49,411 nucleotides of DNA from an uncultured Verrucomicrobiales bacterium (GTDB lineage: Bacteria > Verrucomicrobiota > Verrucomicrobiia > Verrucomicrobiales > Akkermansiaceae): the NCBI GenBank assembly GCA_949373085.1, contig CASICJ010000011.1, positions 1 through 49,411 on the forward strand, read 5' to 3'. Position numbers and translations under genes: made by a program. Positions 13,029 through 30,178 of this stretch are shown here, piece after piece. Position 1 is the stretch's first letter. Every line of letters starts with the position of its first letter. The notes beneath the pieces are model-generated. The model was not told the DNA's origin. It ran no database searches and saw nothing but the letters and a program-made list of their open reading frames with translations.

Positions 13029-13790
13029 ATGGCAAACTTTTTTCCCCGTTGGACAAACTTATTGCCGCTGAAAATTGCGGTTTGTCTTGGAGCTCTTGGT
13101 GCTGGCGTAGTTGCTGGAATCACCTACTATGCAACGCCTAAGGCACAAAGGGTTGGCTACCAGCCCACTCAGCCCATTCATTTTGATCACAATCTTCACG
13201 TGGACCAGCTTGGTATGGATTGCCGTTATTGTCACAGTTTCGTTGAACATTCCGGCCACGCCAACGTTCCGACTGCCAACACGTGCTGGAATTGCCACCA
13301 GCATGTGAAAAAGGGTTCACCCAAGCTAGCGGCCTTACGCTCTGCCATGGGGGTGGATGAATTCCATAGCCCGATTCTTGATGATGGAGGAAGCCCAGTC
13401 GACGGGAAGCCTATCGAGTGGGTCCGTGTCCACAAGGCGCCGGATTACGTCTACTTCAATCACTCGGCTCACCTAAACCGGGGAATTTCATGTGTGAGCT
13501 GTCACGGGGAGGTTAACAAGATGGAAAAAGTCTATCATGCTGAGTCCCACTCAATGGGATGGTGTCTCGATTGCCACCGCGCCCCCGAGAAGCACCTCCG
13601 TCCACTGGAGGAAGTTTTTAATCTCAACTACGATCCTAAAATTTATCTGCAAGACAACGAAGTCATCGACACCGAAGGCTTGATCGTTGGAAAAGGAGAG
13701 CGAATCGAAGAACCTAAAGATTTTGGCAAATTCCTCCGCCTGCATTGGGGAGTTCAGCCGAAGGAGTCCTGTGCGACTTGTCACCGTTAA
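13029..13790 (+). CDS. actA: alternative complex III subunit ActA, pentahaem cytochrome c
   Basis: This is the multihaem subunit of alternative complex III, a menaquinol:cytochrome c oxidoreductase that replaces the bc1 complex. One N-terminal membrane anchor (about 12-34) is followed by a periplasmic domain with five CxxCH haem sites: CRYCH 65-69, CWNCH 86-90, CVSCH 155-159, CLDCH 179-183 and CATCH 248-252. Five haems is the usual number for ActA. Additional histidines such as HFDH (51-54) and FNHSAH (143-148) fit bis-histidine ligation of the cytochrome c7/c3 type. It is the first gene of the operon, directly behind two CRP-type palindromes, and actB follows after 15 bases. There is no Shine-Dalgarno sequence. 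Confidence 0.95.
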   Translation: MANFFPRWTNLLPLKIAVCLGALGAGVVAGITYYATPKAQRVGYQPTQPIHFDHNLHVDQLGMDCRYCHSFVEHSGHANVPTANTCWNCHQHVKKGSPKLAALRSAMGVDEFHSPILDDGGSPVDGKPIEWVRVHKAPDYVYFNHSAHLNRGISCVSCHGEVNKMEKVYHAESHSMGWCLDCHRAPEKHLRPLEEVFNLNYDPKIYLQDNEVIDTEGLIVGKGERIEEPKDFGKFLRLHWGVQPKESCATCHR

Positions 13791-13805
13791 ATTTACCTGC
13801 CTGAG

Positions 13806-16800
13806 ATGAGCAAACGCGTCTGGAACCCACCTGTTACTCCAAACAAAGGAGATACCACAACCGCCTGGCGTAGTCTCGGCGAGAAGGAAGGCACCGAGAA
13901 CTTCCGTAAGCTCCTTGATCGTGAATTCCCGCAAGGGGATACACTTGATGAAGAGGAGCAAAAGCTGTCCCGTCGGAACTTCACCAAGTTAATGGGAGCT
14001 TCGAGCGCTCTTGCTGGTATCGGCTTAGTATCTTGCCGTCGTCCCGAATCTTACATCGTGCCCTATAAAAAGGCTCCTGAATGGATTATTCCTGGAACGC
14101 CGCTTTTTTACGCTAGTACGCGCCCATCGGCAGCTGGAGCGATTCCTTTGGTGGTAACGACTTATGAAGGCCGCCCGACAAAGCTTGAGGCTAACCACGA
14201 TCATCCTGATGCTTCCGGAACTTGTGCACAAACCCAAGCTTCGGTTCTTGATCTCTATTCTCCTTCCCGGTCCCGTAAGATCCTCAAAGGAGGCAAGGAA
14301 GCGACAAAGAGCGAGCTTAAGGCGTCGCTTCAATCTCTAGATCTTGCCAAGACGGCCTTGGTTTTTGGGAATGATGATTCTCCCACTCGTAACCGCCTGG
14401 CGCAAAGTTTAGCCGACAAAGGGGCTACTCTAGTTTCCTATGAGGCAACTTCAGGCGTGCCGCTTTCACCCGGGATTTCGTTTGTCGTCGATTTTGCGAA
14501 GGCGTCCCGTATTCTTTCTCTTGATTGTGACTTCCTTGAGACTGATCCCATCGGAAGCTCCAAGGCTTTTTCGGCAAAGCGTCAGGGCGGGAACGCAAAT
14601 TACGATCAAGAAGGAGACGTCAATCCTGACAAGATGAATCGCCTTTACCAGGTCGAGACCCAGTTCAGCCTCACTGGTGGAATGGCGGATCACCGACTTA
14701 GGGTTGCGCCAAGTCGAGTCGAACTCATCGCGGGCGCTATTGCTGCCGCATTTGAGATCGGTTCTTTCAAAGTAGGGGTTGAGGACAAAAGGGCTCTATT
14801 TCCTGGTGCTGAAGATCCAGAAGGCGAATTTGATACTTGGATCGCCGAGTGCAAAAACGATCTTGAAACTGCTGGCACGGGTGCCTTGGTTCTCGCTGGT
14901 TCTCGCCAGAGCAGAGTTGTCAAACAGATTGCGGCTGCTCTCAACGAAAAGCTTAGTTCCTCAGCAATTCGTCCGGTTCAGACCGACCTTGGGAAATACG
15001 GAGACCTTGCTGACCTCACCAGAAAGCTTGAAAATGGTTCCATTGAGAATGTGGTGTTTCTAACCCCATCAAATCCTGTCTTTGATGCCGATGGCTTTGC
15101 TGAGGTTCTTTTAAAAGCAAAGGTTTCGATTCATTTTGGTCTCCGCACAGACGCAACGGCATGGGCTTGTAATTGGCACATTCCTGCGGCTCACTATCTT
15201 GAAAGTTGGGGTGATGCCCGCACAGAGAACGGTGTTTATTCTCTCATCCAGCCGATGATTCTGCCTCTATACGGTGGACTTTCTGAGCTGGACCTTTTAC
15301 ATATCCTTTGTGGGGGAGATCTTCCTCAAGGCGAGTTTTTCCCAGCAATGGGCGAGGTCAAGACAACCCTAGCCGAGTTGACTGGTAAGTCAGATGACGG
15401 AACTTGGCGGAATGCGCTCACCAATGGGTTTGTCAAGGATACAGCCTATCGAGATAGCAAAGTCAACGTGACCGCGCCGGAGGTCAAGCCGACCCCGGCT
15501 CCTTCGCCAAATGCCTTAGAGGTAATCTTTGCGACTGATCATTCTCTCTTAGATGGTCGTTTCATTGACAATGCCTGGCTTCAAGAGGCGCCCGATCCCG
15601 TTACCAAGTTGACTTGGGATAATGCAGCCCAGATTTCACCGATTACAGCGAAGGAACTAGGTATTTACGACAAAGTGATTGCTTTAGAGCCGAAAACTCC
15701 GTTGATGCGTATCGGAACCAAGGTCAAGGTTTCTAAGCGCTACGAGACTGGCGAGGGCGAGGGGAATCATTCTCCTATGATCGATCTTGCCGTCAATGGT
15801 CGTGAGATCCGTGTGCCCGTTCTCATCGCCTATGGCCATGCTGATAATGCGATCACTCTTCCCGTCGGATATGGCCAAGCCGCCGATGACGGTCGGCAAG
15901 GAGCAGTCGAGTTTGACGAAAATGAGCCGGTAGTCGGTCACGTCGGTCTCAATACTGGCTTTAATGCCTACAGTCTCAGGATTAACGACACTCCTTATTT
16001 CGCTACCGGCGGTGTTGTTAAGAACACGGAGGACAAGTATCCAGTCGCGCTCACCCAAGAGCACAATTCTATGTATGGTCGTGCGCTTGCTCGCGAGATT
16101 TCGACCGATGATGTTGCTGGGAAGGGTGGCTTTGAGAAACAATTGGAAAATGTGAAGAAGCAGGGAATGGATTCCCATGCTCCACCCAACATTTCACTAT
16201 ACAAGCCGGAAGGAAGCGAGACTTGGTCCAAGACCGAACTTGCTAAGAAGACTCACCTTGCTGATGAAATTCACCAGTGGGGAATGGCGATCGACCTCAA
16301 CACCTGCACGGGCTGTAATGCTTGCCTCGTGGCGTGTCAGGCGGAGAATAATATTCCCGTTGTTGGTAAAAGCCAGGTTGCGATGGGGCGCGAGATGCAC
16401 TGGGTTCGGATGGATCGTTATTTCGCTTCTCAAGAGCATCCGGTCGAGCATGGTCACGTCAACCATTCCAAGGAGAATCCAGAGTGGGTTACCCAAAATC
16501 CCGAATCTATCCCTCAACCTGTGTCCTGTGTTCAATGCGAAATGGCTCCTTGCGAGACTGTTTGTCCGGTGAATGCTACCATTCACACAGAAGAGGGTCT
16601 CAACTCAATGGCATACAATCGCTGCATTGGGACGCGCTACTGTGCAAACAACTGCCCTTACAAGGCTCGTCGCTTCAACTTTTTCGACTACAACAAGCGC
16701 AACCCACTCATTAAAGGTAACCTTTACAAAGGTCCATTCGGCGAGAAGCAGGTTGGCGAGGCTCCATCAAAGCAGCGTAATCCAAACGTAACCGTACGCA

Positions 16801-17246
16801 TGCGCGGTGTCATGGAAAAGTGCACCTACTGTGTCCAACGTCTCGAGTCAGCCAAGATCAAACAGAAACAGCAACAGAAGGTTAATAAATATGCCTCTGG
16901 TAAGAAGTCTTACGAAGTCGCGGTGGATCGCGTGAAGGACCTTCGTATCAAAACCGATACCGTGAAGGTGGCCTGCGAAGATGCCTGTTCCTGCGGGGCC
17001 ATTTCTTTCGGAAATCTCCTTGATATCAAATCAAAAGTTGTCCGTGCCAAGGGTAATGTCCTTGATTCGATTAAGATTATTCAGGGGCCTGAGTATCAGG
17101 AAGTCGAAGGTAGCAAGCGAAATTACGACTTGCTTCAATACGTCAATACCCGTCCGCGCACGAGCTATCTAGCTCGTGTTAAGAATCCAAATCCTGCAAT
17201 GCCCGATGCAAAGTTCCTCGGCCAGGCAACAATCAATATTCATTAA
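13806..17246 (+). CDS. actB: alternative complex III subunit ActB, molybdopterin-like / iron-sulphur protein
   Basis: The large periplasmic subunit of alternative complex III. After an N-terminal cytoplasmic stretch there is a Tat-type signal (SRRNF at 55-59) with a cysteine after LVS (C77) that could be lipidated. Residues from about 80 to 800 resemble the molybdopterin oxidoreductase fold, which in ActB carries no molybdenum cofactor. The C-terminal part from about 820 is an iron-sulphur domain with four cysteine groups: CTGCNACLVAC starting at 834, CVQCEMAPCETVC starting at 908, CIGTRYCANNCP near 940, and CTYC near 1005 combined with CEDACSCG near 1059. The 1146-residue length is normal for the fused B1-B2 form. 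It is flanked by actA and actC in the conserved order. Confidence 0.95.
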   Translation: MSKRVWNPPVTPNKGDTTTAWRSLGEKEGTENFRKLLDREFPQGDTLDEEEQKLSRRNFTKLMGASSALAGIGLVSCRRPESYIVPYKKAPEWIIPGTPLFYASTRPSAAGAIPLVVTTYEGRPTKLEANHDHPDASGTCAQTQASVLDLYSPSRSRKILKGGKEATKSELKASLQSLDLAKTALVFGNDDSPTRNRLAQSLADKGATLVSYEATSGVPLSPGISFVVDFAKASRILSLDCDFLETDPIGSSKAFSAKRQGGNANYDQEGDVNPDKMNRLYQVETQFSLTGGMADHRLRVAPSRVELIAGAIAAAFEIGSFKVGVEDKRALFPGAEDPEGEFDTWIAECKNDLETAGTGALVLAGSRQSRVVKQIAAALNEKLSSSAIRPVQTDLGKYGDLADLTRKLENGSIENVVFLTPSNPVFDADGFAEVLLKAKVSIHFGLRTDATAWACNWHIPAAHYLESWGDARTENGVYSLIQPMILPLYGGLSELDLLHILCGGDLPQGEFFPAMGEVKTTLAELTGKSDDGTWRNALTNGFVKDTAYRDSKVNVTAPEVKPTPAPSPNALEVIFATDHSLLDGRFIDNAWLQEAPDPVTKLTWDNAAQISPITAKELGIYDKVIALEPKTPLMRIGTKVKVSKRYETGEGEGNHSPMIDLAVNGREIRVPVLIAYGHADNAITLPVGYGQAADDGRQGAVEFDENEPVVGHVGLNTGFNAYSLRINDTPYFATGGVVKNTEDKYPVALTQEHNSMYGRALAREISTDDVAGKGGFEKQLENVKKQGMDSHAPPNISLYKPEGSETWSKTELAKKTHLADEIHQWGMAIDLNTCTGCNACLVACQAENNIPVVGKSQVAMGREMHWVRMDRYFASQEHPVEHGHVNHSKENPEWVTQNPESIPQPVSCVQCEMAPCETVCPVNATIHTEEGLNSMAYNRCIGTRYCANNCPYKARRFNFFDYNKRNPLIKGNLYKGPFGEKQVGEAPSKQRNPNVTVRMRGVMEKCTYCVQRLESAKIKQKQQQKVNKYASGKKSYEVAVDRVKDLRIKTDTVKVACEDACSCGAISFGNLLDIKSKVVRAKGNVLDSIKIIQGPEYQEVEGSKRNYDLLQYVNTRPRTSYLARVKNPNPAMPDAKFLGQATINIH

Positions 17247-17276
17247 TCTGCGAATTCTTTCCAGCGACTGAAACCC

Positions 17277-18806
17277 ATGTCCGAAGCGACCACACAGTCT
17301 GAGAACAACACGAACGGGATCAAAATTCCTGTCCTCGAGCGTGAGGAGTTGATTCTTAATAAACGTTCCTACCACTGGATCACCGAGCGGATTTGTGGTG
17401 TTGTCGAAAATCGTCAGCCTTTTCTTTGGTGGATCCTTTTTATTCCGTCTGCCATTATTGCTCTTGTCGGAGTTGTTGGTGGCCTCACCTACCTCGTTTC
17501 TACCGGAGTGGGAGTTTGGGGTAATACCAACCGCGTCATGTGGGGATGGCCTATCGTGAACTTCGTTTTCTGGATTGGTATCGGACACGCCGGAACATTG
17601 ATTTCTGCGATTCTTTTCCTGACCCGTCAAAATTGGCGGACTTCTATCAATCGGGCCGCCGAAGCTATGACGATTTTCGCGGTGATGTGCGCGGGCATCT
17701 TCCCAGCCTTCCACGTGGGACGGGTTTGGATGGCTTGGTTTCTTGCTCCGATCCCTAACTCGAACGCGGTCTGGCAGAACTTTAAATCGCCGCTCCTCTG
17801 GGATGTCTTCGCGGTTTCGACCTACTTTACAGTTTCTTTGATCTTCTGGTTCCTTGGGATGGTCCCAGACCTCGCTACCATTCGCGATCGTTGTAAGCCA
17901 GGTATTCGGAAGTTCATGTATGGACTTTTCTCTTTGGGATGGCGTGGCGGTAACCGTCAGTGGAGCCATTACGAGATGGCTTATCTACTCCTCGCAGCGC
18001 TCTCGACCCCCCTCGTTCTCTCGGTGCACTCAGTCGTTTCGTTTGACTTTGCGACTTCGGTTGTTCCCGGATGGCACACCACTATTTTTCCTCCTTACTT
18101 CGTGGCGGGTGCGATCTTCGGTGGATTTGCGATGGTGCTAACCATCATGATTCCTGCACGGGCCCTCTACGGGCTGCATGACATGATCACGATGAAGCAT
18201 ATCGATAACATGTCGAAAATCATTCTCTTGACTGGCACGATCGTCGGTTATGCCTACTTGATGGAGCTCTTCATTGCGTTCTATTCGGGCGCTAAGTATG
18301 AGGGGGCAGCCTTCCTCTTCCGCATTGATGGGCCTTATTGGTGGGCTTATTATTGTATGATGGGTCTCAATGTTCTCTCCCCGCAGATTTTCTGGTTTAA
18401 GAAGTGCCGCGAAAATCTATGGGTTGTGATGGCCGTTGCGATGTGCGTGAACATTGGAATGTGGTTTGAGCGATTTGTTATCATTGTCACCACTCTAGCC
18501 CGGATGTGGCTTCCGGGTGACTGGAAGACTTATAGTCCGAGCGGGGTTGACATACTCACCTTTGTTGGAACGATCGGAATGTTCCTCGCTCTCTTTCTTC
18601 TGTTCCTCCGCTTCCTGCCTTGCATAAATATTGCGGAGGTCAAATGGACTCTTAAAGAAAGTGATGTTCACGATGAGGATAAAAAGGCTCATCCCGACAA
18701 AGGCATTGAAGTGATCGAAGCCTACCAATACGAATTACACGAGAATCCCGAAGGAGCCGCCAAGGAGGCTGGGATCAAAATTGAAACCTCAACTGCCGAG
18801 AGCTAA
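17277..18806 (+). CDS. actC: alternative complex III subunit ActC, NrfD-like quinol-binding membrane protein
   Basis: A polytopic NrfD/PsrC-family membrane subunit, one of the two that bind quinol and anchor ActB in alternative complex III. The sequence starts with the family motif [12 protein letters not shown] (about 29-40), which is typical of ActC. Successive hydrophobic helices follow, about ten in all, with conserved blocks such as [11 protein letters not shown] and [10 protein letters not shown]. At 509 residues it has a hydrophilic charged tail of about 60 residues. Its stop codon TAA is immediately followed by the actD ATG with no gap, indicating translational coupling. Confidence 0.95.
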
Positions 18807-19364
18807 ATGAGCACGAAAGTCCGCAGAGTTTACGGCTACCTTGCCGAGTTCGAAAATGCCTCGCAGCTTTACAAGGCTGCCGAAAAGGTCCGGGATGCCG
18901 GGTTCAAAAAGTGGGATTGTTACACACCGTATCCGGTTCACGGGTTGGATGATGCAATGGGTGTGAAGCGCTCTATTCTTCCTTACTTCGTGTTCTTCGG
19001 AGGGCTGACCGGTTTCATCACCGCGATCGCTTTAGCTTACACGACTCAAGTTGGTCTTTACCCGACAGTCGTGCAGGGTAAACCCGCCAATATCTTCACC
19101 ACAGCGGCCTTCTTTCCGGTGATGTTTGAGCTCACCATTCTTTTCTCGGGTTTTACGGTTCTCTTTGGGTTGCTCGCTCTGATCGGGCTGCCACGCTGGA
19201 ACCATCCTATTTTCGCGAGTAAGCAATTTAAACGTGTGACCGACGATAAATTCTTTATCGCGATTGAAGCCCGTGATGCCAAGTTTTCAGCTGAGAACAC
19301 TAAGTCTCTCCTCGCTGAAATTGGCGGGGATAACATCGAGCTCGTGGAAGACGATTCCGAGTAA
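18807..19364 (+). CDS. actD: alternative complex III subunit ActD (DUF3341)
   Basis: A membrane subunit of alternative complex III belonging to DUF3341. The N-terminal cytoplasmic part has the family pattern VYGYLAEFENASQLYKAA and YPVHGLDDAMG. Two membrane helices follow (about 52-72 and 96-128), then a short soluble tail. It holds no cofactor; a structural role is known for the family. It abuts actC with no spacer, and actE begins 3 bases after its stop codon. Confidence 0.93.
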   Translation: MSTKVRRVYGYLAEFENASQLYKAAEKVRDAGFKKWDCYTPYPVHGLDDAMGVKRSILPYFVFFGGLTGFITAIALAYTTQVGLYPTVVQGKPANIFTTAAFFPVMFELTILFSGFTVLFGLLALIGLPRWNHPIFASKQFKRVTDDKFFIAIEARDAKFSAENTKSLLAEIGGDNIELVEDDSE

Positions 19365-19367
19365 ACC

Positions 19368-19988
19368 ATGAAATATTTTTTCCTCTCTCTTATCGCCCTT
19401 TCGATCCTTGTGGTCGGGGTGTTTGGTTTCCGTGGTGACAAATTTTCACAGGCGCCGATTCAGGTTTTTCCTGATATGGATGACCAAGATAAGGTCAAAG
19501 CCCAGACTGGTGATTCCTTTTTCGCCGATGGCATGGGAGCGCGTAGACCGGTCACGGGGACTATCCCTCGCAACGCCGAAGTAGGAGTGATGCCCGTCGA
19601 GTTCGGAGCCGGTCGGGCCGGATACTACTTTGACGGAAAGAAGGAGGCTACCTTTGGGAATGGTCTTCCTGATGATCTTGAAATCGAAAGCGAGGCCGAT
19701 ATGGTTGGACTTTTGGGACGTGGAGAGGAGATGTTTAATGTCCACTGCGCCATCTGTCACGGAAAGTCGGGTAACGGAAAGGGCGTTGTTTCCCACCATC
19801 TTGGAAATGTTGGTGTCGGTGTTCCTAGTCTGTATAATTATCCTCAGGAGACCTCACCTGATGGCTATATTTACGAGGTCATCTCAAACGGCAAGGGCCT
19901 TATGGGAGGCTATAAACACAACCTGCCCGTTCGCGACCGATGGGCCATCGTTTCCTATCTTCGCGCGCTTCAGGCTTCTGCTAAATAA
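19368..19988 (+). CDS. actE: alternative complex III subunit ActE, monohaem cytochrome c
   Basis: A monohaem c-type cytochrome that passes electrons from alternative complex III to its acceptor. The hydrophobic N-terminus (about 1-20) is a signal or anchor. No cysteine follows it, so unlike some ActE homologues it is probably not a lipoprotein. The haem site is CAICH at 127-131, and M179 in GLMGG is the likely distal ligand. Length is typical at 206 residues. It sits between actD and actF in conserved order. Confidence 0.93.
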   Translation: MKYFFLSLIALSILVVGVFGFRGDKFSQAPIQVFPDMDDQDKVKAQTGDSFFADGMGARRPVTGTIPRNAEVGVMPVEFGAGRAGYYFDGKKEATFGNGLPDDLEIESEADMVGLLGRGEEMFNVHCAICHGKSGNGKGVVSHHLGNVGVGVPSLYNYPQETSPDGYIYEVISNGKGLMGGYKHNLPVRDRWAIVSYLRALQASAK

Positions 19989-20012
19989 CATTTTCATCTG
20001 ACTCAATACGCC

Positions 20013-21332
20013 ATGGCACATCAAGTGACATCAAAAGACATTCCGATCAACGGGGAGCACCTGGAGGAGGGTAAAATTGCGACCCTTAAGATGATTTGCG
20101 GCGGGGTCGGTGGAATTGGTCTGCTCGCAAGCATCATTTATCTCGTCACCGGGAGTGGTGAGGCCCATGGAAGCTATGCATTTTCATGGCTTTTTGCAGT
20201 TTTCTTCGTCACGACAATCGTTCTTGGTGGTTGTTTTTGGACCTTCCTTCATAATCTCTCGAACTCGGGATGGGGAACATCCGTTCGCCGATTGATGGAG
20301 AATCTTGGATTCGTTTTTCCGTTTATGGTCGTCTTGTTCATTCCATTTCTTTTTCCCGGTGTTCAGCAGTATCTCTACGAATGGATGACAGCTTATCGTG
20401 ATGTTGTGGGGGACAGTGCGAATGCCAAGGAGGCACTCTTGCACGACTCCGACCCTCATAATCATCTGCTTGCCGTCAAGACCTTCTACCTCAATCCAGG
20501 GTTCTGGTATGCACGGATTGCTTTCTACTTTATTGGTCTTGGCTTCTTCATCTTCCTTGTTCGAAAGTTTTCTATTGCACAGGACACTGACGATAAGCCC
20601 GGAACCAAGAATCTCTTTGCAGCCCGTAAGCACTCCTCCTGGAGCATGATCATCTTCGGAGTGACTTTGACCTTTCTTGCTCTCGATTTTGTGATGGCTC
20701 TCGATTATTCATGGTTCTCGACCATGTTTGGTGTTTACGTCTTTGCGGGATCGGCGCTGAACTCAATGGCTGTTCTTATCCTGACAGGGATTTTTCTGCA
20801 GAGGATGGGCTATCTCAAAAACGTGGTCACGCAAGAGCATTATCACATTATGGGCAAACTCTGCTTCGCCTTCACTGTCTTCTGGGCTTACGTTTCCTTT
20901 TCTCAGTTCTTCCTGATTTGGTATGCGAACATCACGGAGGAAACCCGTTATTTCCTCCTGCGAAATACTGAGAACTGGAACCTACTGAGTTTAGCTCTCG
21001 TGTTCATGCACTTCGGGCTTCCTTTCTTGGCGCTCCTCCGTTCTGACGTAAAGAAGAGCTCGAAGTTTATGACGATCTTCTGTTTCTACATCCTTTTTAT
21101 GCATGTTTTGGATGTTTATCATATGATCATTCCTGAGCGTGGACCATCGGTCGGTCTTATTATCGATCATCATCCTCAACTTTGGATCTCAGGTTCATGG
21201 CTGGGTGATATTCTTGCTCTTGTTATTGCCGTTTGTGCTTTTCTGTTCGTTTATCTTAGGAATCTGACGTCTGCAGCTCTCTACCCTCATCGCGACCCTC
21301 GAATTCTCGAGTCCGCAAATCTTCATAATTAA
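20013..21332 (+). CDS. actF: alternative complex III subunit ActF, NrfD-like membrane protein
   Basis: The second NrfD-family polytopic subunit of alternative complex III, paralogous to ActC. About ten hydrophobic helices run through the 439 residues. Family blocks include FWTFLHNLSNSGWGTSVRR near 75-93 and ALDFVMALDYSWFSTMFG near 228-245. The C-terminus has HHPQLWISGSWLGDI before the last helix. No cofactor motif is present. A small membrane-protein gene follows after 5 bases. Confidence 0.94.
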   Translation: MAHQVTSKDIPINGEHLEEGKIATLKMICGGVGGIGLLASIIYLVTGSGEAHGSYAFSWLFAVFFVTTIVLGGCFWTFLHNLSNSGWGTSVRRLMENLGFVFPFMVVLFIPFLFPGVQQYLYEWMTAYRDVVGDSANAKEALLHDSDPHNHLLAVKTFYLNPGFWYARIAFYFIGLGFFIFLVRKFSIAQDTDDKPGTKNLFAARKHSSWSMIIFGVTLTFLALDFVMALDYSWFSTMFGVYVFAGSALNSMAVLILTGIFLQRMGYLKNVVTQEHYHIMGKLCFAFTVFWAYVSFSQFFLIWYANITEETRYFLLRNTENWNLLSLALVFMHFGLPFLALLRSDVKKSSKFMTIFCFYILFMHVLDVYHMIIPERGPSVGLIIDHHPQLWISGSWLGDILALVIAVCAFLFVYLRNLTSAALYPHRDPRILESANLHN

Positions 21333-21337
21333 AGGTC

Positions 21338-21661
21338 ATGGATCATACCCGCGACAATCCTCTCAAACGCTTCACTGCTTTCTGGATCGCCATCTTATTG
21401 GCGACTTCCTTTGGGATAGCTCTTATCATCACTCAGCCCTTTGCTCCTGACAAGACCGACAAGGCTTATGAAATGGTAGGTGAAGGCCGGCTTGAAATTA
21501 AAGAGGAGATTGATCGTGCCCAGGATGACGCTCTCAACGAATCAGCTCTCGCTGATGCCTTTCAAGCACAGGCAAAGTCTTTTGATAAGAATACGGAAAG
21601 CAAAGGGAGTATGCCGATTCCGGGTGCCGCACCCGCTTCTGCCGAAAAACCCGTTGAATAA
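21338..21661 (+). CDS. small single-span membrane protein in the act operon
   Basis: A 107-residue protein with one membrane helix near 13-32 (FWIAILLATSFGIALIITQP), then a charged, probably helical stretch (about 40-85) and a proline/alanine-rich tail. No cofactor motif is present and I recognise no family. It lies between actF and the CcoN-like gene, 5 bases after the former. By position it could correspond to a small accessory subunit such as ActG of other complexes, but sequence does not prove that. It could equally connect the complex to the next module. Confidence 0.75.
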   Translation: MDHTRDNPLKRFTAFWIAILLATSFGIALIITQPFAPDKTDKAYEMVGEGRLEIKEEIDRAQDDALNESALADAFQAQAKSFDKNTESKGSMPIPGAAPASAEKPVE

Positions 21662-21693
21662 TACCTTTTCAAGGATCTAACCCGCACACTTTC

Positions 21694-23181: not shown

Positions 23182-23202
23182 ATACCAAGCTTCCAATCAA
23201 CC

Positions 23203-23961
23203 ATGACTTTTAAAGCGTTCATTATCGGTCTCCTAGCAACCTTTGGTATTCCTTGGCTGCTTTTGGTAGTGGTTCCGTATTCAACAATGCGAAGTCTTGA
23301 CCCTGTCGAGTATGATAAGAATTCGGAGTTTACCGGAGCTTTCGTACCAAAGCGCGATGGTCGTATTAAAGAGGGCTCCAGAATTTTTGGTCAGGAAGGG
23401 TGTGCTCTTTGTCACACCCAAATCATCCGCCCAACCTACGCTGGGAATGACGTCCACCGTGGTGAGTGGGCCGGACTTCGGAAGAGCAGTAGTGTGGATA
23501 ATGACACTCGTCGTGAGACCGTCGCCCAAGATTTCCAGCAGGAAGATGTTGCTCACATCGGTCAGACTAGAGTTGGACCTGATCTTTCTAACTTTGGACG
23601 GCGCCTCGAACACTATCTAACGGTTAATAAAAGTAGTCGGACTCCGGAAGAATGGTCTTTGATGCACCTCTATAATCCGAAAGCAGTCCCTCGCTATGAG
23701 GTTCCAGAGACTGGCGCGCGGCTTATTACTGCGCGGAAATCAGCCTGCCCGCCAAAGTCTGGCCTGTTTGACGAGATCCAGGTGAATGGTGCAGGGCACG
23801 GTAACTTACCAGTTGATATAGGTGAGGGGATCGGTCTCAAGCCCACCGACCGGGCCCGGGCTCTTGTAAGCTATTTGGTTTCCCTCAAAAAGGACACTTA
23901 TGGGAACCCGCTTCCCGATGCTCTTAACTTTAATCCAAAGGCCCCTCAATCCGAAGAATAG
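23203..23961 (+). CDS. CcoO-like membrane-anchored monohaem cytochrome c
   Basis: A CcoO-family protein: an N-terminal membrane helix (about 5-26) and a periplasmic monohaem domain with CALCH at 67-71 followed by TQIIRPTYAG, the family signature. The block TRVGPDLSNFGRR (about 122-134) and the helix HLYNPKAV (155-162) also match. The position of the axial methionine in CcoO (x-M-P-A-Y) is V167 (YEVPETG), and no methionine occurs after it. The haem may be five-coordinate or use a histidine such as H155 or that in GAGHGNL. The gene begins 21 bases after the CcoN-like gene and presumably forms a pair with it. No cbb3-type CcoP diheme subunit follows; a monohaem cytochrome does. Confidence 0.86.
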   Translation: MTFKAFIIGLLATFGIPWLLLVVVPYSTMRSLDPVEYDKNSEFTGAFVPKRDGRIKEGSRIFGQEGCALCHTQIIRPTYAGNDVHRGEWAGLRKSSSVDNDTRRETVAQDFQQEDVAHIGQTRVGPDLSNFGRRLEHYLTVNKSSRTPEEWSLMHLYNPKAVPRYEVPETGARLITARKSACPPKSGLFDEIQVNGAGHGNLPVDIGEGIGLKPTDRARALVSYLVSLKKDTYGNPLPDALNFNPKAPQSEE

Positions 23962-23963
23962 TC

Positions 23964-24734
23964 ATGTCTGATCCATCATCATCCAGTGACCTTCGTCCAG
24001 ATTTGGACGAATCGATCAACGTAAAAGATGCTCACGGCGCTCTCAAAGGCGATCTGGCTGCAGGTCGGGAAAAGACAGTTCGTGAAAACGGCATGGAAGC
24101 TGTTTCTTTATGGCTTGTCTTAATCTCCGCGATTGTGGTTCTTGCTGCTGGAGCAGTAATGGGCCAAGGTGGTGCCTTTTTTGGATATAGTGAGTTGGTC
24201 AAGGAAGGGTATATGAGGAGGCCATCTCCGGTCCCACAGGACGCGCCCAAAATGCCAATTGCAGCTCTCTCATTGTTTCAAAAGGAGGGTAAAAAGGTCT
24301 ATGGTACTTGTGTGGCTTGTCACCAAAATAGCGGCCTCGGGCAGACTGGCCAGTTTCCACCTCTAGCCGGCTCCGAATGGGTTGTCGGAAATACCGAGGC
24401 TCTTTCGATGATTATTCACAACGGAGTAGCGGGTAAAATCGAGGTTTCAGGGACTCAGTACAACGGGAACATGAGCGCATTTGGCGCTAATTTGAACGCC
24501 AAGGAGCTTGCGGCCTTGATGACATACATCCGCACATCCTGGGGCAACAATGCAAGTATTGTGTCTCCCTCCATGGCAGCCAATGCTCTTGAAATTTCCA
24601 AGAAGCGCGGTGGTAGCCAAACAAGTGCCGAAGTGCTTAAAAAATCACATGACAAGATGCTTCTCGGTGACATCTTAGAGCCAGATACAATGTTGGATCC
24701 CGAAACATGGGAGCCAATTGCGATCGAGGAATAA
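23964..24734 (+). CDS. membrane-anchored class I monohaem cytochrome c
   Basis: A 256-residue cytochrome with a hydrophilic N-terminus of about 45 residues, one membrane helix (about 47-67) and a periplasmic class I domain. Haem binding is at CVACH (116-120) with M170 (GNMSAFG) as the normal axial ligand. It occupies the position of CcoP after the CcoO-like gene but has one haem where CcoP has two. The C-terminal 60 residues are polar. It begins 2 bases after the preceding stop codon. A role in carrying electrons between alternative complex III and the aa3 oxidase fits the gene order. Confidence 0.88.
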   Translation: MSDPSSSSDLRPDLDESINVKDAHGALKGDLAAGREKTVRENGMEAVSLWLVLISAIVVLAAGAVMGQGGAFFGYSELVKEGYMRRPSPVPQDAPKMPIAALSLFQKEGKKVYGTCVACHQNSGLGQTGQFPPLAGSEWVVGNTEALSMIIHNGVAGKIEVSGTQYNGNMSAFGANLNAKELAALMTYIRTSWGNNASIVSPSMAANALEISKKRGGSQTSAEVLKKSHDKMLLGDILEPDTMLDPETWEPIAIEE

Positions 24735-24760
24735 ATTTAACACCGACCATCGATATTACC

Positions 24761-26650
24761 ATGAGTGCGGAAGCCCACGACCATCACGACGATCACCACC
24801 ACGTTCTTCCTTGGTGGAAGAAATATTTTTTCTCAACAGACCACAAGACGATAGGTATCCAATATGGCCTGTCGGCTGGTGCGTTCCTGCTTTTTGGTTT
24901 CTTTTTAATGATCGTGATGCGTTGGAGCATCGCTTATCCGCATGAGCCACTTCCTGGTTACATGAGTTGGATGTTCACTGATGGATGGAAAGCTCGCTGG
25001 TTAGATGACGGAAAAGTTACTGGCGAGACTTATAACATGTTCGGTGCAATGCATGGTACGATTATGGTGTTTCTTGGAGTGGTGCCTCTTGGATTTGCGG
25101 CCTTTGGAAACTACGTCACACCTTTGCAGATTGGTGCTCCAGATATGGCGTTTCCAAAGCTCAATATGGCCAGTTTTTGGGCCTATCTTGCTGGTGGACT
25201 TGTGATGTGCATGAGCTTTTTCATGGAATCAGGGGCTGCCAAGTCCGGATGGACAAACTACTCGCCTCTCGCCGGCTATGCGGACAAGCAAATCGTCAAC
25301 CAATTTCTGGCGGGTCAGACGCAGTGGTTGATTGGTCTAGTCTTACTAATTACATCTTCGCTCCTCGGTTCGGTAAACTTTGTTACTACGATCATCCAAC
25401 TGCGCGCGAAGGGACTAACTTGGATGCGACTCCCATTTTTTGTGTGGGCCATGCTTGTCACAGGTTTTCTTCTCTTGCTCGCTTTCCCACCTCTCGAGGC
25501 CGCCGGAATCATGCAGCTGATGGATCGTGTGGTTGGTTCGAGCTTCTTCATGCCTTCTGGTCTTTACTCTGCCTCAAGTGGAGCGGCTATGGATCTTTCG
25601 GGGTCAGGTAGCCCTCTTCTTTTCCAGCACCTCTTTTGGTTCCTAGGGCATCCTGAGGTATATGTCCTTCTTCTCCCCGCAATTGCATGTGTTGCTGAAA
25701 TTATACCTTGTAACACTCGCAAGCCTCTCTGGGGATACAAGCCGATGGTTTGGTCAGTTATTGTTCTTGGTTTCCTCTCCTTCATTGTTTGGGCCCACCA
25801 TATGTATCTGACAGGAATGGGTCCTGTGATCTCTACCTTTTTCCAGACGACGACAGTTTTAATTTCGGTGCCCTCGGTTATTCTGCTCACAGCAATGATC
25901 ATTTCGCTGTGGGGTGGTTCAATCCGCTTTACAATGCCTATGATTTGGGCTGCGGCCTTCCTCCCAATGTTTGGTATCGGTGGCCTTACCGGACTGCCAT
26001 TAGCTTTCAATCTCGCTGATCTTCACCTCCACGACACGTATTACGTGATTGGGCACTTCCACTATGTGGTGGCTCCCGGAATTCTCTTTGGTCTCTTTGC
26101 TGGTATTTATCATTGGTATCCCAAGATGACGGGTCGCTTCATGGATAATTTCCTCGGGCACCTCCACTTCTGGCCTTCCTTAGTGTGTATGAACCTTCTC
26201 TTTTTTCCAATGCTGACCCAAGGTATGGCAGGGTTCCACCGGCGGTGGTATAACGGAGGTGAAGGATACATCGAGAAAGGAGCCGAGGGGGTCAACGTTT
26301 TCGGTCTTACCGTAGCTGATAAAATTTCGCTCAATGAGATTATGACCGGATCTGCAATCGCCCTTGCGGTATTTCAGCTGCCTTTCCTTGTGAATATGGT
26401 GATCAGCTACTTTTGGGGTAAGAAGGTGACCAGTGACAACCCGTGGGATGCAACCACTCTTGAGTGGGCTACACCTACTCCTCCGGGACATGGCAATTTC
26501 ACCTTTGATCCAGCAGTCTACCGCGGGCCCTACGAATACAGCCGTCCCGACCATGATTCTGATTTCTTCCCGCAATGGGAGGAGCCTAAGCGTGATGCTC
26601 CGGTTGAAGAGTCCGAGGCAGAACCGGAAAAGCAAACGACAGTGGTCTAG
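24761..26650 (+). CDS. coxA: cytochrome c oxidase subunit I, aa3 type
   Basis: Catalytic subunit of a haem-copper oxidase that reduces oxygen to water and pumps protons. The ATG at 24761 is preferred: the in-frame start at 24707 overlaps the preceding gene and adds no conserved residues. The low-spin haem ligand is in GAMHGTIMVF. CuB ligands are in FLGHPEVYVLLLPA, which also holds the cross-linked tyrosine and the A-type glutamate, and in WAHHMYLTGM. The remaining haem ligands are in VIGHFHYVVA. The D-channel aspartate is present (GAPDMAF). The K-channel lysine is not: the usual VPTGIK reads VPSVIL (L375). The N-terminus is rich in His/Asp, and the C-terminal tail is acidic. Confidence 0.95.
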   Translation: MSAEAHDHHDDHHHVLPWWKKYFFSTDHKTIGIQYGLSAGAFLLFGFFLMIVMRWSIAYPHEPLPGYMSWMFTDGWKARWLDDGKVTGETYNMFGAMHGTIMVFLGVVPLGFAAFGNYVTPLQIGAPDMAFPKLNMASFWAYLAGGLVMCMSFFMESGAAKSGWTNYSPLAGYADKQIVNQFLAGQTQWLIGLVLLITSSLLGSVNFVTTIIQLRAKGLTWMRLPFFVWAMLVTGFLLLLAFPPLEAAGIMQLMDRVVGSSFFMPSGLYSASSGAAMDLSGSGSPLLFQHLFWFLGHPEVYVLLLPAIACVAEIIPCNTRKPLWGYKPMVWSVIVLGFLSFIVWAHHMYLTGMGPVISTFFQTTTVLISVPSVILLTAMIISLWGGSIRFTMPMIWAAAFLPMFGIGGLTGLPLAFNLADLHLHDTYYVIGHFHYVVAPGILFGLFAGIYHWYPKMTGRFMDNFLGHLHFWPSLVCMNLLFFPMLTQGMAGFHRRWYNGGEGYIEKGAEGVNVFGLTVADKISLNEIMTGSAIALAVFQLPFLVNMVISYFWGKKVTSDNPWDATTLEWATPTPPGHGNFTFDPAVYRGPYEYSRPDHDSDFFPQWEEPKRDAPVEESEAEPEKQTTVV

Positions 26651-26689
26651 TTCCGGCCAAGCTTCCACCGAATAACTTCTTTTTGATCC

Positions 26690-28465
26690 ATGGAAATTCC
26701 ATTTATTGTTAACGCCCGTAAGGACACTGGTCTCTTCAACTCGAAAGTCGGTATCTGGCTATTTTTAGCCTCCGAAGTCACTCTCTTCGGTGGTCTGTTT
26801 TCGGGCTATTTGTTCTTACGACTCTACGCGGATTACCCATGGCCAGAGCGCGCACTTCCTGTGCTTCCTGGTTTGATCAACACTTTTGTTTTGATCGGTT
26901 CTTCGGTCACTGTTGTTTTTGCATGGGCTGCATTGAAGATGCGGGAATGGAGAAAGTTTCAGATCTACATGGCGATCACACTTGTTTGTGCCGGTCTTTT
27001 TATGGTGCTCAAGGGGATTGAGTATAACGCAAAGTTTGGTCACCAGGCTGTCCGTCTCCAAGGCGGCGGCCCGGTCCAAGATAACGCGATTGTTGAGGGT
27101 CATCTACACTACGCTAAGCTGGGTGAGGATGGACTCATGGTTGAGGTTGATGAGGACCGTAAGAAAGACGATGGTGTCTTTAAGGCTAACCGCGTTTTGG
27201 TAAAGGCGTCGGAATTTAGTTTCGTTCTGACCCGGCCGACTCATGAGGCCTATGTTCAGGAGATTCTTCGTCAGGCTGGTGACAGCAAGATCACTCTCGT
27301 CGAGCCATACCAAGTCATCGATAAAAGCGAGCTGTCTGCCGGTCAAATGAATCGTGACCAGCTCGTCAGTAGCGAGAATGCTCAAGTTGCCGAGAAGGGT
27401 AGCGAACTTACAATCGAATTACTCGACGATCTCGAAGATTCATATCTTGAGGCACGCTCACATGACCGGAAAATCCGGACTGAGTTTCTTTCTGCTTCGT
27501 GGGATTGGATTCGAAATGAAAAGGGTGAGGAGCAAGCCGCAACCTATATTGTTGAAAAAGAGGTATGGAAAGAACGCCGTGTCGAGGACGGAGAGAAACT
27601 CAAGATCCTGACTCTCCGCGCCTCCTCGGAAGTCACTTTTAAGGTTGATCCTCCGTTTACCTTAGTCCTTGAAACTGGCGACCTTGTCAAAAAAGCGAAT
27701 GTTGATGATTCGAGTGTTAAACTTCGTGATGACACTCTCGTGACGGGTAAAGTGCTCAAAAGTCCAATGATCATGGGGGTCGATGCCCTGGATTTCCGAA
27801 CCACTGCTCAGCGGGCTGAAGCTGAAGCGCTTGATCCGCTTCCTGTGATTGAAGGGACCTGGTTACTCACCCACACACCTGATCACGACAGCCATGATGA
27901 TCACGCCGATAGCGAAGATGCTGATCATAGAAATCAGTTCAAGAAAATTTGGGATTGTCACATGGCGTGGTTGAAGGCTGAGGAGGAGAGACTCAAGGAG
28001 AAGGGGCGTGTTCCATCTCGCAATGATAAGTATCGCGTTAATTGGGATCAGATTCTCGCCTACGGGGGATTGGGTTATGATGCCGACAAGGTTTATCAAG
28101 AGAGTAAAGCCCGGACATTGAAGCGGGCTGGGCTTTTCTCTCTTGATGGGTTCGCAGGTGCTAATCACAAGATTCATAAGGGCGAGTTTCCCCATCTCGA
28201 AATTCCACGCGCCAAAGTTGGATTTGAGTCCACCTTCACACCTAAATGGAATACTTACTATGCAATTTACTTTACGATTACAGGATTGCATGGCCTGCAC
28301 GTGATTGGTGGTGCCCTTGTGCTTGGTTATTACCTATTCTTTGGACGCAAGATGTATGAATCTAACCCTGAATGGTTGGCAAATCGGGTCGAAGTAGGGG
28401 GGCTTTTTTGGCACTTTGTTGACCTTGTCTGGATCTTTCTCTTCCCGATTCTCTACTTGATGTAA
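26690..28465 (+). CDS. coxC: cytochrome c oxidase subunit III with a ~400-residue insertion
   Basis: Subunit III of the aa3 oxidase, a membrane protein that stabilises the catalytic core. The first three helices (about 18-111, with FLASEVTLFGGLFSGYLFLR) and the last two (about 520-591, with TGLHGLHVIGG and VEVGGLFWHFVDLVWIFLFP) are normal. Between them, where the usual protein has a short loop of a few dozen residues, residues about 115-515 form a hydrophilic insertion. It is rich in charged residues and ends with a His/Asp-rich stretch (about 395-413). The total of 591 residues is about two to three times the usual length. The insertion has no membrane segment and no family I recognise. By topology it should be extramembranous. 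The gene is in frame throughout with no sign of a mobile element. Confidence 0.92.
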   Translation: MEIPFIVNARKDTGLFNSKVGIWLFLASEVTLFGGLFSGYLFLRLYADYPWPERALPVLPGLINTFVLIGSSVTVVFAWAALKMREWRKFQIYMAITLVCAGLFMVLKGIEYNAKFGHQAVRLQGGGPVQDNAIVEGHLHYAKLGEDGLMVEVDEDRKKDDGVFKANRVLVKASEFSFVLTRPTHEAYVQEILRQAGDSKITLVEPYQVIDKSELSAGQMNRDQLVSSENAQVAEKGSELTIELLDDLEDSYLEARSHDRKIRTEFLSASWDWIRNEKGEEQAATYIVEKEVWKERRVEDGEKLKILTLRASSEVTFKVDPPFTLVLETGDLVKKANVDDSSVKLRDDTLVTGKVLKSPMIMGVDALDFRTTAQRAEAEALDPLPVIEGTWLLTHTPDHDSHDDHADSEDADHRNQFKKIWDCHMAWLKAEEERLKEKGRVPSRNDKYRVNWDQILAYGGLGYDADKVYQESKARTLKRAGLFSLDGFAGANHKIHKGEFPHLEIPRAKVGFESTFTPKWNTYYAIYFTITGLHGLHVIGGALVLGYYLFFGRKMYESNPEWLANRVEVGGLFWHFVDLVWIFLFPILYLM

Positions 28466-28503
28466 TGCTCGAAACTCTTTTCTGATCTCAAAACTAAAAA
28501 ATC

Positions 28504-28902
28504 ATGGCGGATTCTATTGAAGGAATAAAAAAGGCGAAGAAGCTCTATTTGTTTATTGGTACCCTGTTGTTTGTTTTCACTGTGGTAACTGTGATGGTAG
28601 CGACAGTCGAGTGGCTAGACTTTGGGGACCATGGGTTTGATTGGGTAGATGCAACGATTGGCCTTTGTATCGCCGCTTTTAAAGCCACGCTTGTGATGCT
28701 CATTTTTATGCACCTAAACCACGAGCGCCCGATGATTTATTTTTTCTATGTTCTCGGATTAGTGATGGCATTTTTCTGTATGTGGTTGATTGGTTGGTCA
28801 AAGAGCGATCCTATCCAGTTTGGTAATGAGATCTACAGTGATGGCTTTTACGATTTGTCGAAGCCGGCGACTGATGTTCACGGCCACGGAGCGAGGGAAT
28901 AA
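28504..28902 (+). CDS. coxD: cytochrome c oxidase subunit IV family protein
   Basis: A 132-residue membrane protein of the prokaryotic subunit IV (caa3-type) family. It has three helices, the second containing the family motif A-x-x-K-A-x-L-V-x-x-x-F-M-H-L (AAFKATLVMLIFMHL, about 58-72). It is a small accessory subunit of the oxidase with no cofactor. It lies after coxC and before two tiny membrane-protein genes. Confidence 0.9.
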   Translation: MADSIEGIKKAKKLYLFIGTLLFVFTVVTVMVATVEWLDFGDHGFDWVDATIGLCIAAFKATLVMLIFMHLNHERPMIYFFYVLGLVMAFFCMWLIGWSKSDPIQFGNEIYSDGFYDLSKPATDVHGHGARE

Positions 28903-28914
28903 CTGTATTAAGTC

Positions 28915-29118
28915 ATGTCAATCAAAGGATTCCATCTAATCTTCATCGCAATTGCTGCCTTGTTCTGTGCCGGTTTTGGAATTTGGGCGCTTTTCTTTGA
29001 TGAGCAGTCCTCTGGACTTGGTATCAAAATCTTCGGGGGGATTACTCTTGCCGTTTCTGTCGTCCTAATTGTCTACGGTTTTTATTTCAGACGAAAATCA
29101 AAGGACATCATTGTTTAA
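28915..29118 (+). CDS. small two-span membrane protein in the cox cluster
   Basis: A 67-residue protein with two predicted membrane helices (about 5-27 and 36-57) and a short positively charged tail. I recognise no family. It begins 12 bases after coxD and precedes another tiny gene by 14 bases. Its place inside the oxidase operon suggests an accessory or assembly role, which is inference. Confidence 0.72.
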   Translation: MSIKGFHLIFIAIAALFCAGFGIWALFFDEQSSGLGIKIFGGITLAVSVVLIVYGFYFRRKSKDIIV

Positions 29119-29132
29119 ATCTTAATAAATCC

Positions 29133-29354
29133 ATGATTTCATTTTTCTCAGTTCTAGCCTGCGCAACCTGTGCGAACTCCTTCAAGCATGGTGGTCAGGA
29201 TGCCGCAGGTTGGGCGATTGCCCTGATGCTTTTAGTCATTGTTCCACTCGTCACGATGGTCGTGTGGTTCATGGTCAAAATTGCAAAGCGTGAGCGCGCC
29301 GCTTTAGATTCCCAGTATTGCGACGATTATGTTGCGCCCCACAGTAATTCCTAA
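29133..29354 (+). CDS. small membrane protein with N-terminal CATCANS motif
   Basis: A 73-residue protein. A short hydrophobic start (MISFFSVLACATCANSF) contains a CxxC pair (C9 and C12, counting CATC) and is followed by a membrane helix (about 26-49). The tail is polar and holds one further cysteine. No family is recognised. The cysteine pair could be structural, metal-binding or a site of processing. The gene lies directly upstream of coxB (11 bases), so a part in oxidase assembly, for example CuA handling, is possible but not shown. Confidence 0.7.
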   Translation: MISFFSVLACATCANSFKHGGQDAAGWAIALMLLVIVPLVTMVVWFMVKIAKRERAALDSQYCDDYVAPHSNS

Positions 29355-29365
29355 TTTTTTTACCC

Positions 29366-30178
29366 ATGTTCACTTCATTAAACTGGTCAAAATGGCTCGG
29401 GATTCCCGAGAATTATTCCGATCACGGTGGTAACGTCGACCACCTCATCGATATTGTTCACTGGTTCATGTTCGCTCTCTTCATAGGGTGGACCCTTTTC
29501 TTCCTATTTTGCCTTTGGAAGTTCCGGGCTTCTAAAAATGCTAAAGCAAGTTATCACGGCGTTACTAATCATGTCTCCAGCCATTTGGAAATAGGGATGG
29601 TGATTATCGAAGCTGTTCTGTTATTAGGGTTTGCATTTCCTCTTTGGTGGGAACGGACGGATAGTTTTGACGAGGTTCAACAGACTGACCCTGCCCGCGT
29701 GCGCGCCGTTGCTTACCAGTTTGGTTTTAGTTACCACTATCCTGGAGAAGATGGTAAGTTTGGCAGGATTGATCGGACTCTTGTCAGCAGGCCGGGCGAT
29801 CCGTGTATTGATCCGGATGACCCAAATGGCTATGACGACTTTGTCTCAGGAATCCTCAAACTTCCTGTGAAGCGGAATATTATTCTCCAAGTCACTTCGA
29901 CCGATGTGATTCACAACTACTCAATTGTTCCGATGCGGATCCAGCAAGATGCGATCCCCGGCCGTGATATTCCTATGTGGTTCATGCCAACAAAGGAGCT
30001 CGAGACTTACGTGGTTTGTGGCCAGCTTTGTGGAGAAAATCATGCTAATATGCGCGGTGTTATGGAGGTTGTGAGCCAAAAATCATTTTCGAGTTGGGCG
30101 GCTGAGCAAAGCAAAGCTTCACTTGAAAAATCCCAAGAGGCTCTTGAGGCCGACAACGCAGGTCTCGCAAGGAAATAG
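29366..30178 (+). CDS. coxB: cytochrome c oxidase subunit II with CuA site
   Basis: Subunit II receives electrons at its binuclear CuA centre and hands them to subunit I. Two membrane helices (about 28-52 and 75-94) are followed by a periplasmic cupredoxin domain. CuA ligands are all present: H183 (DVIHNYS), C218, Q220 carbonyl, C222, H226 and M229 (CGQLCGENHANM). Q replaces the more common glutamate, as in several caa3 enzymes. The aromatic entry region usually written QWYW reads QFGF (about 118-121), so the electron-entry tryptophan is missing. There is no fused cytochrome c domain. It is unusual as the last gene of the cluster, behind coxA, coxC and coxD. A strong terminator follows. Confidence 0.94.
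   Translation: MFTSLNWSKWLGIPENYSDHGGNVDHLIDIVHWFMFALFIGWTLFFLFCLWKFRASKNAKASYHGVTNHVSSHLEIGMVIIEAVLLLGFAFPLWWERTDSFDEVQQTDPARVRAVAYQFGFSYHYPGEDGKFGRIDRTLVSRPGDPCIDPDDPNGYDDFVSGILKLPVKRNIILQVTSTDVIHNYSIVPMRIQQDAIPGRDIPMWFMPTKELETYVVCGQLCGENHANMRGVMEVVSQKSFSSWAAEQSKASLEKSQEALEADNAGLARK

Follow-up and report, generated by a model that had tools for sequence, protein, structure and literature searches.

The window analysed here is a 49,411-nt stretch of DNA (contig CASICJ010000011.1, assembly GCA_949373085.1) from an uncultured Verrucomicrobiales bacterium of the Akkermansiaceae. At positions 13029-30178 of the plus strand, it carries the genes of alternative complex III (ACIII, actABCDEF), followed by a cbb3-like module (ccoN, ccoO, and a cytochrome c gene) and the genes of an aa3 oxidase. 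The CcoN-like protein of the module keeps only one of the seven active-site residues of a cbb3 oxidase subunit I. It appears that such inactive forms arose repeatedly in the class to which the organism belongs and that they are retained. It is this repeated inactivation, not the gene order, that is surprising. The evidence tips somewhat in favor of reading the module as a cbb3 oxidase linked to ACIII that has been disarmed, and whose CcoN is kept as a subunit that would hold the cytochrome exit from ACIII towards the CuA center.

A cbb3 subunit I fold without its active site

The CcoN-like subunit is encoded at 21694-23181 (+). Its profile matches are COX1 and ccoN, and it aligns to cbb3 subunit I sequences of the PDB with a best E-value of 9e-23. 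An AlphaFold2 model built from 46 sequences has a predicted local distance difference test (pLDDT) score of 92. The best PDB matches of this model are cbb3 CcoN chains, with template modeling (TM) scores to the query of 0.83-0.85 (0.85 to 3mk7). In the model, the protein therefore has the subunit I fold of CcoN.

Does the fold still contain an active site? The seven positions inspected are the conserved His/Tyr columns of 13 reference forms, L073-L085 (L- and G-numbers are locus and genome labels), which we take to be H60, H207, Y251, H257, H258, H345, and H347 in the Pseudomonas enzyme. These columns read H, H, Y, H, H, H, H in the references and H73, G214, G258, Q264, K265, F352, and I354 in the window. 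In other words, only H73 remains of the six His ligands of haem and CuB and the Tyr. To judge from these residues, the protein cannot hold a haem-copper center of known type, which bears out the claim of an initial annotation that the middle module is unable to reduce oxygen. A nitric oxide reductase or other known haem-copper function is likewise ruled out because the ligands are gone. Despite the loss of its partner in haem binding, H73 itself is kept in 22/22 inactive CcoN of the window's family (f1) and of f2 (f2 and f5 are other families in the survey). These 22 proteins also share a newly fixed H454, which together with H73 might make up a new haem site.

Distribution of the module and its linkage to ACIII

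A protein search over 387 genomes of the phylum gave matches in 122. Of these, 93, including the window's own genome, belong to its class and carry the module with this form of CcoN. Five of the remaining 29 were fetched (L073, L074, L075, L083, and L084), and all five have 7/7 residues and no act cassette. The ligand alignment used 136 of 141 CcoN rows, leaving out four short ones (L118, L134, L138, and L166) and the split L122. Among the 93 genomes, 28 keep all seven residues and 65 keep 0-3 (none in 17, one in 41, two in five, and three in two), while none keeps 4-6. The active-site Tyr is lost in all 65 inactive proteins, with His in its place in one. Family f5, probably Opitutales, has 8 intact and 27 inactive CcoN. 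The act-cco cluster was also seen in four metagenome-assembled genome (MAG) records whose titles name Akkermansia muciniphila or Methylacidiphilum sp. Phi (L104, L106, L107, and L164). The ActC proteins of L104 and L106 are 98% identical although the titles give two different genera, so the titles look mislabeled.

The gene for ActF shares a fragment with ccoN in 92 of the 93 genomes, and the sole exception is a 5.2-kb contig. Of 47 long loci, 17 have coxA and/or coxB downstream of the module in the same orientation (13 of them with the coxA-C-D order of the window), and the other 30 have no same-strand cox genes after it. In two f1 genomes (G268 and G316), an A-type coxA lies on a different contig from ccoN. 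Because aa3 genes follow in only 17 of 47 loci while linkage to actF is nearly complete, the conserved cassette is actABCDEF-ccoN-ccoO-cytochrome, and the aa3 genes are a lineage-specific addition. The module had been proposed, as a point for a gene-order survey, to be a joint between act and cox genes; the survey does not support this, as the module goes with act. That the module belongs to the aa3 cluster only is rejected by the 30 loci without cox genes, and a MAG artifact is rejected because genomes assembled into a single contig, among them G254, G018, and G099, have the module as well.

A scan of genome contigs, which kept the best 80 of 576 confirmed places, was the source of L094, L156, L160, L152, L124, and L121. 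The last five, from records labeled Methylobacillus, Marinobacter, Bryobacterales, Chloroherpetonaceae, and Bdellovibrionales, hold intact ccoN-ccoO-cytochrome trios, and the stretches fetched around these trios contain no act genes. Such act-free trios are a possible source of the module.

Repeated inactivation and purifying selection

A tree of ActB, ActC, and ActF was built with FastTree from the 87 loci in which all three proteins are long. On this tree, the intact and inactive states need 16 changes, 14 of which are forced by starred branches. If loss is taken as irreversible, the tree needs 20 losses, or 15 after branches under 95 are collapsed. A tree of CcoO and the cytochrome (86 rows) needs 11 changes, of which 6 are forced. 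An approximately unbiased (AU) test applied to the CcoO-cytochrome tree rejected a single inactive clade at a cost of 511 log units (p-AU 1e-34; p 1e-7 without L051). For the CcoO-cytochrome tree and for a tree of CcoN itself, seven near-copies were dropped and six outgroup rows added; in the former, four rows had no usable CcoO. L130, with 6/7 residues, was scored as intact in the trees and the truncated L172 stayed outside them; both lie outside the 93 genomes. On the neighbor-gene trees, the number of separate losses seems to be 11-20.

Evidence that inactive CcoN is maintained comes from the coding sequences. The ratio of nonsynonymous to synonymous substitution rates (dN/dS) of ccoN is 0.050-0.157 in eight inactive pairs and 0.047-0.100 in four of five active pairs, the fifth being saturated; some of these pairs share a member, and several dS values exceed 1. 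All 65 inactive copies in the 93-genome set have an open reading frame (ORF) of at least 459 aa. Judged by these measures, the inactive CcoN is kept by purifying selection. Mean column conservation, uncorrected for relatedness, is 0.49 in inactive and 0.72 in intact CcoN, and 42 columns are kept in both. In Chthoniobacter flavus Ellin428 (L122:8522-10004), two overlapping ORFs share the ccoN sequence between them; their readable ligand positions look lost too, and three cytochrome c ORFs come after them.

Cytochromes of the module and the bridge to CuA

The cytochrome gene at 23964-24734 (+) encodes a membrane-anchored monohaem cytochrome c with CxxCH at 116-120 and Met170. The closest PDB sequence to its haem domain is Thermus cytochrome c552 (E-value 4e-20), which is a CuA donor. 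The cytochrome and CcoO were each found in 91 of the 93 genomes. In the cytochrome, CxxCH is kept in 91/91 and the Met in 90/91, the last row having a gap.

The CcoO-like protein (23203-23961, +) has one predicted helix and one CxxCH (67-71), and its homology to CcoO is weak. Of the CxxCH and axial Met that mark a cbb3 CcoO, it keeps the CxxCH and has Cys182 in the Met column. The Cys182 assignment rests on that alignment column: the CcoO model has a pLDDT of 78, CcoO chains matched it loosely (TM to query 0.33-0.38), and its axial position was unusable. Across the survey, the CxxCH of CcoO is kept in 91/91, including 63/63 inactive forms, and the axial Met is kept in 28/28 intact forms and in 39 of 47 inactive forms outside f1.

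Between actF and ccoN lies a further small gene (21338-21661, +). The initial annotation had called its product a one-helix protein. The single helix stands, and comparison with relatives adds that the protein, which has no haem motif, resembles the anchor of a second cytochrome c whose haem domain is present in several relatives. Of the 16 f1 genomes with the module, 11 have an ORF at this position that was called as a second cytochrome, and CxxCH was seen in the four whose sequences were inspected. The number of c haems in the module thus varies among f1 genomes.

Which protein hands electrons to the aa3 oxidase? ActA ORFs have five CxxCH motifs in 81 of 84 cases, and the remaining three have 3 or 4 (the short ORFs of L108 and L111 among them). 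CxxCH is absent from CoxB in the window and in 31/31 further loci with coxB. This motif count takes in the near-copies L102 and L111 and the short CoxB of L093 and leaves out L118 and L122. Since ActA has five haem motifs and CoxB none, neither published bridge is seen, be it through a sixth haem in ActA or through a CoxB c domain. By elimination, this points to the anchored c552-like cytochrome as the bridge to CuA, rather than proving it.

Why is an inactive CcoN retained?

The reading that we favor can be set out as follows. The ancestor of the module would be a functional cbb3-type oxygen reductase whose genes lay directly behind those of ACIII. Its CcoN would have lost the haem and copper ligands here, and separately in other lineages, while another haem-copper oxidase did the oxygen chemistry. 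The inactive CcoN, kept by selection, would position the membrane-anchored cytochrome c and CcoO next to ACIII. Menaquinol electrons would then pass through ActB, the five ActA haems, and ActE to the anchored c552-like cytochrome and from there to CuA of the adjoining aa3 oxidase. The physical assembly of the module with ACIII and the electron route are what we infer here. For an ACIII-oxidase supercomplex with direct transfer, as suggested in the initial annotation, it is the gene order that makes it a candidate. The repeated inactivation is supported by the trees, which are not free of conflict. As for the other oxidase, a further PF00115 match (at least 418 bits) is present in 32/32 genomes with inactive CcoN that were checked, and a single PF00115 match occurs in just two genomes (G001 and G146), both of them with a 7/7 CcoN. 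These two genomes lend thin support to the idea, with which they fit, that another oxidase must exist before CcoN loses its chemistry.

Five observations weigh against this scheme. First, the tree of CcoN itself groups all inactive forms but L051 and needs only two changes. The inactive rows stand on long branches in this tree, with L051 still beside the intact L046 and L049, and the grouping is probably a long-branch pull. Repeated inactivation in place would be a better reading of the trees than one inactive lineage, and the conflict between them is real. Second, the axial Met of CcoO is Cys in 16/16 f1 proteins, and 8 of the 47 inactive forms outside f1 also have a different residue there, so this haem may carry no current. 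His/Cys ligation usually lowers the potential of a haem strongly. Because all f1 proteins have the Cys, a relay through the CcoO haem of the window is doubtful. Of the two-haem relay from ActE to CuA that had been suggested earlier, a bridging cytochrome stays plausible, given the haem motifs of ActA and CoxB, and the idea of two ordinary haems is doubtful here. Third, according to the available part of PMC8552683, the aa3 oxidase of Flavobacterium johnsoniae gets electrons without ActE, so the route could bypass ActE. Fourth, many loci with an inactive module have no aa3 genes beside it. Finally, 13 of 15 genomes with intact CcoN also have a further PF00115 match, which makes the other-oxidase pattern weak.

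The most serious rival takes the module as a docking device only. In that account, the inactive CcoN and CcoO would carry no electrons and would serve in assembly or lateral contacts, while CuA would be reduced directly by ActE or by a soluble cytochrome c. It draws on the finding that the axial Met of CcoO is replaced only together with an inactive CcoN (24/63 versus 0/28 with intact CcoN; Fisher p 5e-5, with 16 of the 24 in one family and the rows not independent), and on Rhodothermus marinus, whose ActE is described as the direct donor to caa3 oxidase (PMC5928083, as far as its available text goes). However, a pure scaffold would have no need of the CxxCH motifs that are retained without exception in inactive CcoO and in the cytochrome. 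We regard docking alone as unlikely, if still a credible account.

Could one ancient inactive copy have spread between clusters by recombination? The two-change CcoN tree is in line with this, as is the loss of the Tyr in every inactive copy of the 93, which is what a shared first loss would give. However, CcoO and the cytochrome, which adjoin CcoN, reject one inactive clade in the AU test, and inactive and intact forms are intermingled in their tree in much the same way as in the act tree. L051 stands with the intact L046 and L049 in all three trees (the CcoO-cytochrome tree adds the inactive L062), and the long branches of the inactive rows in the CcoN tree also speak against a single spreading copy. 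Recombination is therefore improbable as the main cause.

More improbable still is a new membrane function, in which the vacated copper/haem pocket, now polar (K, R, E, D, Q, S), would serve as a proton or ion path coupled to ACIII. Polar or charged residues occupy the former CuB positions in many inactive lineages: 15 of the 16 f1 proteins have K265, and others have E, D, or R. YY230-231 and K235 are kept in most inactive and intact forms. However, no new polar residue is common to all inactive lineages, the Tyr is lost throughout, and buried polar residues may just pack the emptied cavity. A decaying, functionless relic is strongly disfavored and a pseudogene is rejected, for although the ligands were lost in many combinations, the Chthoniobacter copy is split, and column conservation is lower in inactive forms, the long ORFs in all 65 copies, a dN/dS of about 0.1 (0.05-0.16), and the 42 shared columns argue otherwise.

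Returning to the disarmed oxidase, a wider claim can be built on it, which we hold tentatively and with slightly more doubt than confidence. On many separate occasions (11-20 on the neighbor-gene trees), a terminal oxidase that shared an operon with ACIII may have become a non-catalytic unit that ACIII cannot do without and through which its electrons leave. "ACIII plus pseudo-cbb3" would then be a distinct class of quinol:cytochrome c complex, in which the dead oxidase core brings a c552-like cytochrome into contact with CuA or with other acceptors and the CcoO haem has been re-tuned to His/Cys in one family. It would also mean that verrucomicrobial methanotrophs are without the high-affinity cbb3 oxidase credited to them in papers. 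If true, a core respiratory enzyme would have lost its function again and again while the protein was retained, and the hand-over of electrons from ACIII to an aa3 oxidase would have a third solution. What a dead oxidase does becomes a testable question in cultured bacteria. Annotations of a "cbb3 high-affinity oxidase" in Verrucomicrobiota, papers on methanotrophs included, need a ligand check.

Genes of ACIII and the aa3 oxidase

The window encodes all six subunits that make up ACIII. ActA (13029-13790, +) is a pentahaem cytochrome c with five CxxCH motifs and one predicted N-terminal helix, and it matches 8k9e_A, 6f0k_A, and 6btm_A. ActB (13806-17246, +) is a fusion of a molybdoenzyme-like and an iron-sulfur part (6f0k_B, E-value 3e-182), and ActC (17277-18806, +) is an NrfD-type membrane subunit with an NrfD/DsrP match. 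These are followed by ActD (18807-19364, +; PF11821 ActD, 203 bits) and ActE (19368-19988, +), a monohaem cytochrome c matching 6f0k_E. ActF (20013-21332, +) was recognized by its match to 6f0k_F (E-value 7e-55), and a Pfam search with it gave no match.

Downstream of the module, CoxA (24707-26650, +) is subunit I of an A-type (aa3) oxidase by its profile matches, with the His motifs and HPEVY. CoxB (29366-30178, +) is the CuA-bearing subunit II by profile match and motif (CGQLCGENHANM); together, the His ligands and HPEVY of CoxA and the CuA motif of CoxB identify the enzyme as A-type. CoxD (28504-28902, +) is of the subunit IV type (COX4_pro). Between CoxD and CoxB are two small membrane proteins with similar ORFs in relatives, one with two predicted helices (28915-29118, +) and one with a single predicted helix (29133-29354, +). 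CoxC (26690-28465, +), subunit III by profile matches, has an insert of ~390 residues that separates its N-terminal from its C-terminal part and in which a Pfam search gave no match. The insert would be periplasmic by the charge rule and is a possible docking domain. CoxC is 541-611 aa long in long f1 loci, 466-489 aa in f2, and 263-290 aa in methanotrophs.

The window's assembly is 81% complete, and its PF00115 matches are only the CcoN-like protein and CoxA. Neither cytochrome bd (PF01654) nor cytochrome b (PF00033) was found in this 81%-complete assembly. To the extent that this assembly shows, the organism uses the act-module-cox unit for the oxidation of quinol with oxygen.

Operon layout

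All 16 ORFs of the unit were confirmed on the plus strand between 13029 and 30178, and profile and structure matches of their products agree with the act-module-cox gene order given in the initial annotation. The gaps between the genes are 0 to 39 nt, as had been reported, except that the first ATG of coxA gives a 28-nt overlap with the cytochrome ORF. A second in-frame ATG at codon 19 (~24761) would leave a gap if used, and the true start of coxA may lie there.

Two palindromes of the CRP type had been noted upstream, and both are exact copies of TGTGAN6TCACA 5' of actA (12966-12981 and 12991-13006, without strand). Exact sites are expected 0.04 times in the window, and none of 100 shuffled sequences contained a pair. 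When up to one mismatch was allowed, 13 of 61 loci examined had a site within 600 nt upstream of the actA ORF or in its first 150 nt; 8 of these 13 are among the 9 f1/f2 loci with an actA ORF. The terminator reported at the end of the unit was likewise recovered. Read from the letters themselves, it is a terminator-like hairpin followed by a T run, CCAGAG-GTTAAA-CTCTGG-TTGTTTTTTT, at ~30205-30232 (+). It is not among the sites listed by a consensus promoter/terminator scan of the window, which gave 39 terminator-like sites (22 in shuffles) and 11 promoter-like sites (17.5 in shuffles) and is weak evidence either way. The gap lengths, upstream sites, and hairpin are compatible with a single transcription unit.

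Comparison with known systems

In 5/5 genomes positive for pmoA, all of one family, the act-linked CcoN has one of seven residues left, and in the named isolate Methylacidimicrobium tartarophylax (L094), CcoN is inactive. aa3 genes also follow the act-linked module in methanotroph loci. No protein of the five pmoA-positive genomes exceeds the cut-off of TIGR00780 (ccoN), and the window protein also misses this NCBIfam equivalog cut-off (95.5 versus 583 bits). Because intact act-linked forms miss it too (G088, 224 bits), the ligand test is stronger than the profile cut-off. Refojo 2010 is reportedly cited by others for ACIII-linked C-type oxidases. In the available parts of published work on methanotrophs, a cbb3 oxidase is placed beside ACIII (PMC6688271, PMC8498564) and tied to high oxygen affinity (PMC6688271). 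The genes directly after ActABCDEF in Verruconatronum are listed as "Cox I-IV caa3" (PMC13274419, in part). Literature searches recognized no published report of ligand loss in an ACIII-linked cbb3 subunit in the texts as available, which does not show its absence from print.

The initial annotation knew of no described function for the middle module. The neighborhood of act, cbb3, and aa3 genes has already been published: in Methylacidiphilum caldifontis IT6, aa3 and cbb3 genes adjoin an ACIII cluster with inserted nos genes, and the cbb3 enzyme is taken as an oxidase (PMC11102522, in the part available). A similar arrangement is found in L071, which is pmoA-positive and has nosZ, nosD, and other nitrous oxide reductase genes between actF and the inactive ccoN (L071:11475-17165), resembling the IT6 description. 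More generally, the ACIII-linked "cbb3" of methanotrophs and Opitutaceae occupies the same place beside ACIII and is called an oxidase in the accessible text of these reports (PMC8498564, PMC6688271, PMC11102522).

The module shares with a cbb3 oxidase the CcoN fold, the CcoO homology, a membrane cytochrome c, and the gene order N-O-c. However, the inactive forms have lost 4-7 of the seven residues, and the third protein is monohaem, whereas the third cbb3 protein, CcoP, is dihaem. Thermus thermophilus c552, the closest PDB sequence to the cytochrome, is soluble, while the window's protein is membrane-anchored and encoded in the operon. The closest systems as a whole are the ACIII-aa3/caa3 supercomplexes of F. 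johnsoniae and R. marinus, in which act genes are followed by those of an A-type oxidase and direct transfer has been proposed, so far as the available text of PMC8552683 and PMC5928083 goes. There, the bridging c haem is assigned to a sixth haem of ActA or to a CoxB c domain; in contrast, the window has neither motif and has CcoN, CcoO, and the cytochrome between the two complexes.

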